Shown here: in pieces, positions 8,134 through 11,560 of the stretch
How positions within the stretch are numbered: the stretch's first letter is position 1
How the letters are laid out: the number at the start of each line of letters is the position of its first letter
Source of the DNA: Acetomicrobium hydrogeniformans
GTDB taxonomy: Bacteria > Synergistota > Synergistia > Synergistales > JAFGMB01
Direction: 5' to 3'
Assembly (NCBI GenBank): GCA_016841745.1
Contig: JAENYO010000010.1
Coordinates: 1 to 64,000 of the forward strand
DNA length: 64,000 nucleotides
Notes under the pieces: model-generated
Databases searched by the model: none
Told to the model about the DNA's origin: nothing
The model's input: only the letters and a program-made list of their open reading frames with translations
Program-made: the position numbers and the translations under genes

Positions 8134-8976
8134 ATGATCATAGATTGTCATGTACATGTATATCCCCCAGAAATAATAAAGAACTGGGAAAAGATAGCTG
8201 AAAGGGAGGAGCACTTCCGAACCCTTGTTACCAACAGTGTCCATAAGTGGGCAACGACAGAAGATGTAATAGAACAGATGGAGAAGGATAAGATAGACCA
8301 GTCCTGGATATTCGGGTTTGCATTTGATGACATGGGGTTGTGCCGGGAGTGTAACGACTATGTTATGGAATCTGTCAGAAAATACCCAGGAAAGCTGAAG
8401 GGTATGGGCGTGGTCAACCCCATCGCTCGAGGTGTGGAGGAAGAGACAGGCAGATGCGCTGAAGCCGGTTTTATAGGAATAGGTGAACTCTTTCCCCAGG
8501 GCCAGGGTTTTAACCTCACCGATATGCGTCAGACATGGAAAATAGCCGGCCTTGTTGACGAACTTGGAATGTTTCTTATGTTTCATTCAGCAGAGCCTGT
8601 GGGTCATGAATATGGGGGAAAGGGTAATGTTGGACCAAAAGAAGCAGCCACTTTCAGTACTAACCATCCTGAAGTAAAAGTGATATTTGCCCACTGGGGA
8701 GGCGGTCTGTGGCTTTACGAACTTATGCCGGAGATGAAAATGTACCTGCAGAATACGTACTATGATACTGCTGCTACTCCATGGCTTTATACGTCAGGGA
8801 TGTTCGATTCGATGTTCAGTGCGGGTATAGGTAAAAAGATCCTGTATGGTTCTGATTTCCCTATACTCACTTGTAAAAGATATGTTAAAATACTTGAACA
8901 GTCAGGCCTTACTGGTTTACAGAAGGAAATGGTCCTTGGTAAAAATGCCATCAAATTCCTTAAAAAAAGGTGTTGA
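8134..8976 (+). CDS. Amidohydrolase-2 family metal-dependent hydrolase
   Basis: A 280-residue TIM-barrel hydrolase. The metal-binding HxH is in IIDCHVHVYP (His6, His8), further ligands are likely His in FHSAEPVGH and FAHWGGG, and the catalytic Asp is in LYGSDFP near the C-terminus. Members include decarboxylases and hydrolases of aromatic or acyclic acids; the substrate cannot be read from the sequence. The Shine-Dalgarno TGGAGG precedes the ATG. The TGA stop overlaps the -35 box of the tRNA-cluster promoter. Confidence 0.85.
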   Translation: MIIDCHVHVYPPEIIKNWEKIAEREEHFRTLVTNSVHKWATTEDVIEQMEKDKIDQSWIFGFAFDDMGLCRECNDYVMESVRKYPGKLKGMGVVNPIARGVEEETGRCAEAGFIGIGELFPQGQGFNLTDMRQTWKIAGLVDELGMFLMFHSAEPVGHEYGGKGNVGPKEAATFSTNHPEVKVIFAHWGGGLWLYELMPEMKMYLQNTYYDTAATPWLYTSGMFDSMFSAGIGKKILYGSDFPILTCKRYVKILEQSGLTGLQKEMVLGKNAIKFLKKRC

Positions 8977-9001
8977 CATAAAAGGCAGTCCTAGTTATAC
9001 T
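8973..9001 (+). promoter_or_regulatory. Near-consensus promoter of the tRNA cluster
   Basis: TTGACA (8973-8978), a 17-nt spacer and TATACT (8996-9001) lie 35 bp before tRNA-Val. The TGA stop codon of the amidohydrolase gene (8974-8976) is inside the -35 hexamer. Confidence 0.8.
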
Positions 9002-9035
9002 ATCCTTCGCGTCAAGGCAGTAATGGCGGGCATAA

Positions 9036-9110
9036 GGGCGGATAGTTCAGCGGAAGAACACCTGCCTTACACGCAGGGGGTCACAGGTTCGAACCCTGTT
9101 CCGCCCACCA
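9036..9110 (+). tRNA. tRNA-Val (TAC)
   Basis: A cloverleaf with acceptor GGGCGGA/TCCGCCC, anticodon stem CCTGC/GCAGG and loop CTTACAC (anticodon TAC), T loop TTCGAAC, and encoded CCA. It is the first gene of the tRNA cluster. Confidence 0.96.
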
Positions 9111-9145
9111 TTATAAAAGAAGGACATTGACAATCTTTGCAATGC

Positions 9146-9222
<77 letters not shown>

Positions 9223-9243
9223 TTTATTTGTCCTTATCACTGA

Positions 9244-9319
<76 letters not shown>

Positions 9320-9341
9320 TTTTGATAACGATAAATGACGG

Positions 9342-9416
9342 GCGGAAATAGCTCAGCGGTAGAGCACAACCTTGCCAAGGTTGGGGTCGCGGGTTCGAAT
9401 CCCGTTTTCCGCTCCA
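9342..9416 (+). tRNA. tRNA-Gly (GCC)
   Basis: A 75-nt cloverleaf with acceptor GCGGAAA/TTTCCGC, anticodon stem CAACC/GGTTG and loop TTGCCAA (anticodon GCC), discriminator T, and encoded CCA. Confidence 0.96.
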
Positions 9417-9433
9417 TTACTTGAAAATCTGTT

Positions 9434-9507
9434 GGCGGCATAGCCAAGTGGTAAGGCAGAGGACTGCAAATCCTTTATCCCCGGTTCGAATCCGGGTGCC
9501 GCCTCCA
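9434..9507 (+). tRNA. tRNA-Cys (GCA)
   Basis: A 74-nt cloverleaf with acceptor GGCGGCA/TGCCGCC, anticodon loop CTGCAAA (anticodon GCA), discriminator T, and encoded CCA. Confidence 0.96.
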
Positions 9508-9533
9508 CTAAATATATACAATATGTTTCTATA

Positions 9534-9600
9534 TTCCTCGGTAGCTCAATTGGAAAATGGAAGCTGTTAATCCGCCAGCTGGCGGATTCGAGTCCTGAGT
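9534..9600 (+). pseudogene. Broken tRNA-Asn copy carrying a 20-bp palindrome
   Basis: The first 20 bases (TTCCTCGGTAGCTCAATTGG) are identical to the start of the intact tRNA-Asn about 97 bp downstream. The middle then departs: after GCTGTTAA comes the perfect palindrome AATCCGCCAGCTGGCGGATT (9569-9588), running into an intact T-arm TTCGAGTCCTG. The 3' acceptor strand and CCA are lost. It cannot fold as a normal tRNA. The palindrome replaces the 3' anticodon stem and variable region. Confidence 0.85.
9569..9588. repeat. 20-bp perfect palindrome, copy 1
   Basis: AATCCGCCAGCTGGCGGATT equals its own reverse complement. A related copy at 10105-10124 differs at positions that keep most pairs (C-G changed to T-A). 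Confidence 0.95.
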
Positions 9601-9631
9601 CGATTAGTTGAAAATGCATAAGGTTCAATAT

Positions 9632-9707
9632 TCCTCGGTAGCTCAATTGGCAGAGCGGGTGGCTGTTAACCACTAGGTCGCAGGTTCGAGTCCTGCCCGA
9701 GGAGCCA
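9632..9707 (+). tRNA. tRNA-Asn (GTT), intact copy
   Basis: A 76-nt cloverleaf with acceptor TCCTCGG/CCGAGGA, anticodon stem GGTGG/CCACT and loop CTGTTAA (anticodon GTT), T loop TTCGAGT, discriminator G, and encoded CCA. It is the last complete tRNA of the cluster and the parent of three fragments around it. Confidence 0.96.
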
Positions 9708-9716
9708 GAATATGAC

Positions 9717-9747
9717 AAGACGGTCAGGTAAACTGACCGTCTTTTTT
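9717..9747 (+). terminator. Terminator of the tRNA cluster
   Basis: AAGACGGTCAG/CTGACCGTCTT with loop GTAAA and six T. The same block occurs again at 10156-10187. Confidence 0.93.
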
Positions 9748-9768
9748 ATATTATATTCCATCGCACAT

Positions 9769-9808
9769 GACTCGAACCTGCATCATTAGCTAATGCCACC
9801 CGCTCTGC
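9769..9808 (-). pseudogene. Inverted tRNA-Asn-like fragment with a 12-bp palindrome
   Basis: Read on the minus strand it gives the D-arm end and anticodon 5' stem of tRNA-Asn (GCAGAGCGGGTGGC), then CATTAGCTAATG (a perfect palindrome, plus-strand 9784-9795) in place of the anticodon loop and 3' stem, then GCAGGTTCGAGTC from the T-arm. Both flanking halves match the intact tRNA-Asn, but the acceptor arm is absent and the orientation is reversed. Confidence 0.75.
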
Positions 9809-9839
9809 TTTTCTTTGATCTCGTTGTATAATCGCGTAT

Positions 9840-10106
9840 ATGTCTTATTTTGTGTATGTATTGCTCAACCCAGAAGGGGAAATTTATATCGGTCAAACGA
9901 ATAACCTTGATCGACGCTTATTTCAGCACAATGATCCTGATTTCAAGGGTTCCCTCCATACTAAAAGGCATAAGGGTCCCTGGAGGTTAGTGTATCAGGA
10001 GGAATATCCTACTCGTTCAGAGGCTATGAAAAGGGAAAAACAGCTTAAGACTTCCCGTGGACGTGAGTTTATATGGCAATATCTCAAAGAAGCAAGTGGC
10101 TGTTAA
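9840..10106 (+). CDS. Small GIY-YIG nuclease-domain protein
   Basis: An 88-residue single-domain protein of the UrvC-like/UPF0213 GIY-YIG group. It has FVYVLLNPEGEIYIGQTNNLDRRLFQHN: a YVL...IYIG variant of the GIY-YIG strands, then the conserved Arg (DRR) and His, with Glu in REKQLK near the end. Such domains cut DNA using one metal ion; the biological role of the free-standing form is poorly known. The last codons AGT GGC TGT TAA are the anticodon-arm sequence of a tRNA-Asn fragment, so its stop codon lies within a former anticodon loop. The upstream side is an inverted tRNA-Asn fragment. No clear Shine-Dalgarno is seen; a TTGTATAAT near 9823-9831 could be part of a promoter, which would imply a leaderless message. 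Confidence 0.88.
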   Translation: MSYFVYVLLNPEGEIYIGQTNNLDRRLFQHNDPDFKGSLHTKRHKGPWRLVYQEEYPTRSEAMKREKQLKTSRGREFIWQYLKEASGC

Positions 10107-10145
10107 TCCGTCAGTTGACGGATTCGAGTCCTGCCCGAGGAGCCA
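10096..10145 (+). pseudogene. 3' half of tRNA-Asn duplicated after the GIY-YIG gene
   Basis: It begins GTGGCTGTTAA as in the anticodon arm of tRNA-Asn, then has a near-palindrome (10105-10124), and from TTCGAG at 10123 it is identical to the intact tRNA-Asn 3' end including CCA. The identity runs on through the terminator, 63 nt in all (9685-9747 equals 10123-10185). The 5' half is missing, so it cannot make a tRNA. Confidence 0.88.
10105..10124. repeat. 20-bp near-palindrome, copy 2
   Basis: AATCCGTCAGTTGACGGATT pairs over 9 bp each side with a two-base centre. Compared with copy 1 at 9569-9588, the fourth pair from the centre changes from C-G to T-A on both sides, which keeps the hairpin. 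Confidence 0.9.
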
Positions 10146-10155
10146 GAATATGACA

Positions 10156-10187
10156 AGACGGTCAGGTAAACTGACCGTCTTTTTTTG
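10156..10187 (+). terminator. Duplicated terminator after the GIY-YIG gene
   Basis: A copy of the tRNA-cluster terminator: AGACGGTCAG/CTGACCGTCT with seven T. It is part of the 63-nt direct duplication and now ends the GIY-YIG transcript. Confidence 0.93.
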
Positions 10188-10258
10188 ATATTTTCTATGA
10201 CATAACTCGAACATGGTTATCCCCTTTGAGATAGTTAATGGATACTCTGGTTACATTT

Positions 10259-10453
10259 CTATCCAAGTATCTCCTTAACCCTTCCCACAATTCCGTTTTC
10301 CAGTCGAACTTTAATCCCATGAGGATGATGAGGGCTTTTTGTAAGCAGATCCTTCACAATGCCTTCAGTAAGTTTTCCTGATCTCTGGTCCTGTTTCTGC
10401 ACTATCCTGACCTTTAAGCCGGGTCTCAGACTAACCCGTTCCGTTCCTGACAT
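10259..10453 (-). CDS. YwbE family protein
   Basis: A 64-residue protein that matches the YwbE/DUF2196 family: RPGLKVRIVQKQDQRSGKLT, then GIVKDLLTKSPHHPHGIKVR and LENGIVGRVKEI. The family is small, conserved and of unknown function, with an SH3-like or KOW-like feel. GGAGGAAATTAA lies before the ATG on the minus strand. It is transcribed alone, divergent from the gene at 10646. Confidence 0.9.
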   Translation of the reverse strand: MSGTERVSLRPGLKVRIVQKQDQRSGKLTEGIVKDLLTKSPHHPHGIKVRLENGIVGRVKEILG

Positions 10454-10645
10454 TTAATTTCCTCCCTGGCGTTTCTTGTTATTACTTGAAAAGGTATTGT
10501 ACCATGTCCTATGGATACTGTTTAATTATACCTTCATAAGTATCCAGGTTGTATCGCTTCTATTTGCTGTTGTGATATCATAATCCTGGTTTATCTTAAG
10601 TCTTCATGTCTTTTTTCATCCATTTTGCTTAGAGAAGGAGAAGAA

Positions 10646-11560
10646 ATGCATTCATCTGGGAAAAATTACCTTGGTTTATTTCTCATATGTCTTACTCTCT
10701 CATTATTTCAAGGGCGTATATGCCTGTGCCCTGCTATTGCTTCAGAAGAAAAGGATCCAGTGTCTTCTGTAGACATCGTTTCTGTCGAAACAGCAGCCAG
10801 GGATCTTTATGGCGCTGTTCAGCAGGTACTTGTGGCAATTGAAAAGAATGTTGATTATAAAGATACCCAAAATCATCCGGAGCAGCTTGGTGAGCTTCTC
10901 GTAAGAAGCAGGAGTGCCCTGTCCACTGCTGAATCGGTTCTGAATAAACTGCGGGTTTCAGGGAAATCTGAAGAGGCAGCATCTTACATGGAAGCCTGCC
11001 AACATGCCAACCTGGGTCTGAAAAGCCTTTACTCATACCTGGTCGGTCTGGTGGACGGACAGCCAAAAGAAAAACTGTGGACCGACTATCTAACCAATAT
11101 GGGTAAGTATCTCGATTTAACCCGGGTTATCAATGAAAACAGGCAGAAGAACCAATTGGAGAAGGGAGTTCTTTTTGATCTTCTGGCGGAAATGAAGTCT
11201 ATAATGGATCCAGCGATTGTGGCAAACACTCTTTTTTACCAGATGCTGGAAGAGAAAGTTTCTCCGGATAGAGTATTCCTTGCTTCAGTCGAAGCAAGGG
11301 AAAATTCGTTCCGTGCCATGGTTAATCTGAATAATATGTTCTTTCCACTAGAAATTGAAAATCCAGCCTTTCGTGATGTGGTAAACTGCTCATCCCTTTA
11401 CCGTGCTTACAGTCTCTACATGATCAGGGCCCTGGATATGTATGGCTGTTCTGGAGATAATCAGGATATATCCTTTGAAATGGCAGATCTGATAAAGGAA
11501 TCCCGTACTTTTCTTCATCAGGCCGAGGGTGTTATCAGAACCCTGAAAGGGTCATATTAA
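10646..11560 (+). CDS. Hypothetical secreted helical protein
   Basis: 304 residues from ATG 10646, chosen because GAAGGAG (10636-10642) is well placed; an upstream in-frame start at 10625 would overlap that site. An N-terminal hydrophobic segment (YLGLFLICLTLSLFQG) followed by CPAIASEEK looks like a signal peptide, possibly with Cys near the cleavage site. The rest is mostly helical with many Leu and Glu and few aromatic clusters; I recognise no family. It precedes a PPP-type phosphatase gene by about 50 bp, so the two may be co-transcribed. Confidence 0.75.
   Translation: MHSSGKNYLGLFLICLTLSLFQGRICLCPAIASEEKDPVSSVDIVSVETAARDLYGAVQQVLVAIEKNVDYKDTQNHPEQLGELLVRSRSALSTAESVLNKLRVSGKSEEAASYMEACQHANLGLKSLYSYLVGLVDGQPKEKLWTDYLTNMGKYLDLTRVINENRQKNQLEKGVLFDLLAEMKSIMDPAIVANTLFYQMLEEKVSPDRVFLASVEARENSFRAMVNLNNMFFPLEIENPAFRDVVNCSSLYRAYSLYMIRALDMYGCSGDNQDISFEMADLIKESRTFLHQAEGVIRTLKGSY

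Follow-up and report, generated by a model that had tools for sequence, protein, structure and literature searches.

SegB, a free-standing GIY-YIG homing endonuclease of phages T4 and T6, cuts within tRNA genes and gives rise, according to the available part of the report (PMC13096335), to recombination-driven tandem repeats of a tRNA together with segB. The locus described here resembles it in the position of the nuclease beside tRNA genes, with many isotypes involved, and in the microhomology between the tRNA 5' end and the nuclease 3' end. SegB, however, is phage-borne and its repeat unit contains a full-length tRNA, palindrome-marked half-tRNAs not being described in the available part of that report; the element described here resides on bacterial chromosomes, encodes a protein of about 88 aa, and is built of half-tRNA units carrying palindromes at fixed positions.

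Group I introns, some of them with homing endonuclease genes, are also selfish DNA located in bacterial tRNA genes (PMC3984707), but in the element the tRNA is saved by duplication of a half, not by splicing. An Rfam search of positions 8900-10700 returned tRNAs and no intron, and the intact tRNA is separately encoded: a group I intron was therefore rejected. Integrase-type tRNA islands share with the element the duplication of a tRNA 3' end, and differ from it by the integrase, absent here, by the size of the unit (about 400 bp in the element) and by the insertion in the anticodon arm. An integrase island was rejected as well, since the only ORF between the tRNA copies is the GIY-YIG one, and no recombinase gene is present.

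REP elements and their RAYT transposases, known together as REPtrons (PMC3733652), offer a different likeness: short palindromes, dispersed in some genomes and tied to a small nuclease gene. No TCCG motif appears in the available main text of that REP catalogue. In the element, the palindromes are also found in tRNA arms, and the gene that they flank encodes a GIY-YIG enzyme, not a Y1/HUH transposase, so that the locus is not a REPtron. Finally, GIY-YIG-encoding insertions in CPR rRNA genes are likewise non-intron insertions in stable-RNA genes, most of them at the tops or bases of stem-loops (PMC11270868). Their hosts are rRNA rather than tRNA genes, and palindromes or half-copy duplications are unmentioned in the available part of that report; they may be cousins of the tRNA elements. 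A literature search, with preprints and most subscription papers outside its reach, retrieved SegB and no description of these bacterial tRNA elements. What is reported below looks like a widespread minimal selfish element, apparently undescribed.

Organization of the tRNA-Asn locus and its nuclease

The window, i.e. the whole stretch of 64,000 nucleotides analysed, belongs to contig JAENYO010000010.1 of Acetomicrobium hydrogeniformans, a member of the Synergistales with a 3.04-Mb genome. A tRNA cluster (Val-Asp-Phe-Gly-Cys, 9036-9507) is followed by a disturbed tRNA-Asn region, where a broken tRNA-Asn, an intact one trailed by a terminator-like hairpin, a tRNA fragment in inverted orientation, a GIY-YIG gene, a tRNA 3' half and the second copy of a 63-nt sequence come in this order (Table 1). 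The initial annotation had described one intact tRNA-Asn accompanied by a broken upstream copy, an inverted fragment and a 3' half, and ARAGORN and repeat analysis confirm it; the exact duplication of the tRNA 3' end and terminator, also noted there, is found as a perfect 63-nt repeat (9685-9747 = 10123-10185).

Table 1. Features of the tRNA-Asn locus, in window coordinates
Feature	Position	Strand	Basis and remarks
tRNA-Cys	9434..9507	+	ARAGORN; the conserved Val-Asp-Phe-Gly-Cys-Asn cluster is undisturbed up to and including this gene; order matches sister families
Broken tRNA-Asn copy	9534..9600	+	Repeats D4/D2; position of the single tRNA-Asn of sister families (empty-site comparison)
Palindrome AATCCGCCAGCTGGCGGATT, core TCCGCCAGCTGGCGGA	9569..9588	.	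Sequence and genome-wide uniqueness
Intact tRNA-Asn (GTT)	9632..9707	+	ARAGORN and Rfam
Spacer behind tRNA-Asn, with terminator-like hairpin AAGACGGTCAGGTAAACTGACCGTCTT	9708..9747	+	Repeat D1 and inverted repeat I2; the 3' flank is duplicated, this being its first copy
Inverted tRNA-Asn fragment (T arm, part of D/anticodon stem)	9769..9808	-	Inverted repeats I1 and I3; between terminator and ORF
GIY-YIG nuclease gene, 88 aa	9840..10106	+	ORF, Pfam, pN/pS, AlphaFold
tRNA-Asn 3' half, starting in the anticodon arm	10096..10145	+	Repeat families D1/D2
Palindrome AATCCGTCAGTTGACGGATT	10105..10124	.	Sequence; at most 3 mismatches from the first palindrome
Second copy of tRNA-Asn 3' end and terminator, 63 nt	10123..10185	+	Repeat D1, 100% identical

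In the broken copy, AATCCGCCAGCTGGCGGATT takes up the place where the 3' anticodon strand, the variable region and some of the T arm would be. Palindromes of the form TCCGNC....GNCGGA, with up to 3 mismatches, occur only at the two sites of the locus within the whole 3.04-Mb genome; on these grounds the palindromes were rejected as ordinary background for this genome, an explanation accepted in part for others. A palindrome had been assigned to each of the three fragments: AATCCGCCAGCTGGCGGATT and AATCCGTCAGTTGACGGATT stand, while CATTAGCTAATG (9784-9795), in the inverted fragment, has another form, without TCC...GGA, and no counterpart in the sister genus's inverted fragment. Not being conserved, it was dropped as a third palindrome of the element, and is probably due to chance. 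In the inverted fragment, the 14 nt at 9795-9808 match the reverse complement of 9650-9663 without a mismatch, and an inverted T-arm is found at 9769-9781; the latter has a counterpart both in the sister genus and in another Synergistales locus (L234, see below). The TAA stop codon of the nuclease gene lies inside the tRNA fragment and is formed by tRNA sequence, GGCTGTTAA. At 10096-10106, tRNA-Asn sequence encodes the C-terminal residues SGC as well as the stop; similar overlaps are seen in relatives.

The small GIY-YIG nuclease gene is recognized as such by Pfam (PF01541, E 2e-18), as initially annotated. Residues Y16, G18, R26 and E66 are invariant among 34 relatives, and the AlphaFold model (pLDDT 92) has UPF0213 proteins and Slx1 as nearest folds. 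Domain, conserved catalytic residues and modelled fold all place the protein in the GIY-YIG nuclease superfamily; it consists of the bare domain, without a separate DNA-binding domain. UPF0213-like small GIY-YIG proteins and Slx1 (PDB 1zg2, 1ywl, 6sei) are the closest solved matches in both sequence and fold. UPF0213-like relatives of the same order, unlike the window family, are not associated with tRNAs: ARAGORN found none at the UPF0213-like Synergistales loci, taken as outgroup and control subfamily. Between the window gene and the copy in the sister genus, pN/pS is 0.20 with saturated synonymous sites, indicating that the gene has long been under purifying selection.

Empty, filled and amplified sites in relatives and other phyla

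The empty tRNA-Asn locus that the initial annotation proposed to look for is present in relatives: in sister families of the Synergistales, tRNA-Cys is immediately followed by one tRNA-Asn, which closes the same cluster without any insertion and occupies the place taken in the window by the broken upstream copy. A filled site is found in a sister genus of the same family, where a broken copy with palindrome, an intact copy, an inverted fragment, a GIY-YIG gene and a decayed 3' half are recognizable. The gene is 69% identical to that of the window and now contains one stop codon, which shows that some copies decay. The duplicated tRNA-flank sequence, identical within the window, has diverged between the two genera; judged by sequence, the identity of the 63-nt repeat fits either a recent duplication or ongoing gene conversion. 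One locus of another Synergistales family (L234/L286; 1388-1700 in L286) features an intact tRNA-Asn, an inverted T-arm, a palindrome-bearing 3' half and a duplicated terminator, without the nuclease gene, and is a possible remnant or non-autonomous derivative. In two further genomes (L240 and L241, from G041 and G035), the contig breaks off at this locus, either at tRNA-Asn or just within it, and one of the two has a broken palindromic copy; this suggests assembly-stopping repeats at these points.

Under a strict threshold, only 2 of 188 genomes from the phylum contain the nuclease. Its nearest relative outside the phylum is encoded by an Acidobacteria genome, likewise beside a tRNA-Asn; a palindrome of this type and a tRNA 3' half come after the gene. 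Sequence relationships, with the nearest kin in Acidobacteria at tRNA-Asn and the gene rare in its own phylum, point to horizontal transfer. A phage or plasmid origin was rejected, the only matches being distant ones, below 60% identity.

A scan of public genomes yielded 70 loci from Acidobacteria, Bacteroidota, Chlorobiota, Marinimicrobia, Nitrospirae, Omnitrophota, CPR and others, fetched by similarity to the window protein and thus not a random sample. The family is present in 122 of 192 sampled Patescibacteria genomes, with up to 11 copies, and in 109 of 198 sampled Bacteroidota genomes, with up to 16. A search for small GIY-YIG genes near tRNAs had been proposed in the initial annotation: an ARAGORN tRNA lies within 320 bp of 82 of the 114 family loci, while the figure for pseudo-ORFs of equal size, positioned elsewhere in these loci, is 5 of 331 (Fisher p 4e-56). 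Among these neighbouring tRNAs, 92 share the gene's strand and 2 have the opposite orientation. In a CPR set, chosen by protein score only, 40 of 50 loci are tRNA-linked. For the remaining 32 of the 114 loci, some of them located on contig ends, ARAGORN reported no neighbouring tRNA, and in one CPR genome (G226) most strong family members do not adjoin a tRNA. One family member (L170) follows a tmRNA gene at a distance of about 155 bp, which suggests that targets may extend beyond tRNAs.

The isotype of the neighbouring tRNA follows the protein tree: 35 changes are required, against 61.1 in shuffled data, and none of 200 shuffles was as low; the protein being short, single forks of the tree are weakly supported. 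The nearest kin of the window gene, in Acidobacteria and Synergistales, are also at tRNA-Asn. Two layouts are observed: in Bacteroidota and kin, as in the window, the intact tRNA is upstream of the gene and the 3' half downstream, while in CPR a 5' half is upstream and the intact tRNA downstream. In the closely inspected examples, the junction between gene and tRNA half falls in the anticodon arm.

At some loci the unit is tandemly repeated. Three exact 323-bp units, each composed of half a tRNA-Ser and the nuclease gene, precede an intact tRNA-Ser in L283, and five 365-bp units follow an intact tRNA-Met in L282; in both, the half-tRNA and the nuclease gene are repeated and the intact tRNA stays single. 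In L281 there are eight units, each about 365 bp long, and the stretch fetched includes no intact tRNA.

Palindromes in tRNAs and at dispersed positions

The link between nuclease and palindromes, advanced as an inference in the initial annotation, is real, as a wider count shows: a TCC...GGA palindrome is found within 450 bp at 51 of 87 tRNA-linked loci and in 7 of 162 control windows (p 6e-22). Around the tRNA-linked loci, 70 of 89 such palindromes border directly on tRNA sequence at one or both ends, and they do so at fixed tRNA positions. Recurrent junctions are 37/48 or 38/49 in tRNA-Met, 24/35 in tRNA-Val and 23/32 in tRNA-Lys; in tRNA-Asn they are 23/34 in Bacteroidota and kin, and 13/17 in CPR. 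The stretch replaced by the palindrome is about 10 nt long, frequently a single strand of the anticodon stem, and the replacement is confined to the leftover half copy. Related arrangements were seen at two other loci. In L105, a tRNA-Val-like sequence, where hairpin TCCCGACTAAAAAGTCGGGA replaces the anticodon arm, is present at 2816-2892 and in two further identical copies, one of them reported by ARAGORN as tRNA-???; in L048 (2583-2944), a pseudo-tRNA-Asn of 76 bp, interrupted by AATTCGCCTCAGGCGAATT, is present in five tandem copies upstream of a family member.

In three genomes, that of the window, G197 and G189, every copy found of the searched pattern is at the nuclease locus. By its own terms, the initial annotation would be refuted by palindromes occurring widely without GIY-YIG genes or tRNA sequence; this is partly the case, as they are common away from both in other genomes, though not in that of the window. 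Dispersed copies number 66 in a 0.8-Mb Kazan genome, against 1 for the reversed control pattern, and 230 in an Acidobacteria genome, against 15, and are mostly far from tRNAs and nuclease genes. In G226, none of 40 palindromes is within 400 bp of a nuclease gene. In this genome, 27% of the dispersed palindromes are placed in the centres of larger hairpins, where 4% are expected; for a set pooled from 14 genomes the values are 25% and 5%, an excess of about five times. Examples from G226 (L196-L230; e.g. G226:C1:87184 and 660132) are 16-nt palindromes in loops of terminator-like or other hairpins, with neither tRNA nor GIY-YIG genes close by.

In the 192 Patescibacteria, genomes with more nuclease copies tend to have more palindromes (Spearman 0.53, against 0.17 for the reversed control pattern, kinship being ignored), and still do so after removing Y1-transposase copies (0.48, again ignoring kinship). 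The correlation for Y1 transposases, once GIY-YIG is controlled, is 0.15: palindrome abundance tracks the GIY-YIG gene much more closely, and Y1 transposases are weak candidates as palindrome drivers. In the 198 Bacteroidota, the excess of palindromes over control correlates with nuclease copies at 0.37, and raw counts at 0.095, kinship being ignored in both. At least 5 palindrome copies are present in 8 of 70 nuclease-free CPR genomes.

A proposed homing-type element and its alternatives

The best explanation, with a probability of about 0.6, is a mobile element of minimal size, namely a free-standing GIY-YIG gene of homing type inserted into the anticodon arm of a tRNA, with duplication of part of this tRNA and its flank leaving one copy intact. 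Recurrence across phyla, a phylogeny tracking the isotype, empty sites and tandem units strongly favour a tRNA-associated nuclease element over an integrase island. Placement, isotype specificity, empty sites, half-tRNA duplication, tandem units and fixed-position palindromes are directly observed. As for SegB, the gene is located at, and is specific to, a conserved target, as indicated by tRNA proximity and isotype tracking, and empty alleles occur in sister families. The initial annotation, where a tRNA-targeting nuclease element distinct from an integrase island was proposed, holds as to the association with tRNAs and the lack of an integrase; the palindromic "end or processing site" remains that annotation's own inference.

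By analogy, the protein would work like a free-standing homing endonuclease, with sequence-specific cleavage and recombination-driven copying. The nuclease would cut the DNA of the tRNA gene, and repair by homologous recombination would copy the unit, or duplicate it in tandem, as with phage SegB. The palindrome would destroy the cut site in the leftover half copies, making them immune, and might bring a second benefit by disabling the folding of the leftover half as a tRNA; the intact copy would keep the cell alive. GIY-YIG homing enzymes can cut away from the insertion point, as I-TevI does. Since the palindrome is about 10-25 nt from the junction between gene and tRNA, and cutting may take place at a distance, self-immunity is favoured as its role. 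The presumed target, however, is still present in the intact tRNA: this counts against the homing-type explanation and is the main gap in the immunity of the host locus. The bare domain, the loci without a tRNA, the members of G226 located away from tRNAs and the decayed copy in the sister genus also count against it.

The dispersed palindromes raise the question of whether they are themselves what is moved. TCC...GGA palindromes might be non-autonomous mini-elements inserting at hairpin loops, including tRNA arms, with the GIY-YIG gene as autonomous partner, as RAYT may be for REP. The correlation with nuclease copies in Patescibacteria (0.53) and, as excess, in Bacteroidota (0.37) agrees with this, as do the preference for hairpin centres and the three genomes where all copies are at the nuclease locus. 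Such a reading is nevertheless unlikely: the correlations ignore kinship and nearly vanish in the raw counts of Bacteroidota, some nuclease-free CPR genomes have 5 or more palindromes, and those of G226 are all distant from nuclease genes. In its fuller form, also doubtful, tRNA-dwelling nucleases would be a GIY-YIG counterpart of RAYT/REP, moving the 16-nt palindrome into hairpin loops, tRNA arms first, where half-tRNAs are disarmed, then terminators and other hairpins genome-wide.

Tandem duplication of the tRNA, for ordinary reasons, may have come first, with spare copies decaying and gathering hairpin-loving repeats, and the nuclease gene being a passenger tolerated in non-functional DNA. 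tRNA clusters do recombine, pseudo-copies without nuclease exist (L234/L286), and palindromes are common repeats in some genomes; but isotype tracking, the 92-to-2 strand bias, fixed junctions in unrelated phyla, tandem arrays that include the nuclease and purifying selection are left unexplained, and this history is improbable, being already disfavoured. Alternatively, the nuclease could benefit the host, raising tRNA dosage, or providing a backup, against tRNA-cleaving toxins or defence enzymes. SegB serves phage T6 in this way, amplifying tRNA-Tyr to defeat Septu, according to the available part of the report (PMC13096335), and units are tandemly amplified here too. In L282 and L283, however, what is amplified is a half tRNA, disabled by the palindrome, beside a single intact one, so that dosage is not raised: a role in tRNA supply is very unlikely.

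If the homing-type explanation is true, these would be among the commonest minimal selfish elements in Patescibacteria and Bacteroidota, residing in essential tRNA genes without splicing, and reaching at least 10 copies in some genomes. Many small GIY-YIG annotations and tRNA fragments would be explained as parts of one unit, and short palindromic repeats without a known mobiliser would gain a candidate enzyme. Should the RAYT/REP-like reading be the true one, a previously unlinked class of palindromic repeats would be the product of a second, non-transposase mobiliser. The element offers a testable way to break an essential gene harmlessly: to duplicate one half of it, and to disable what is left over.
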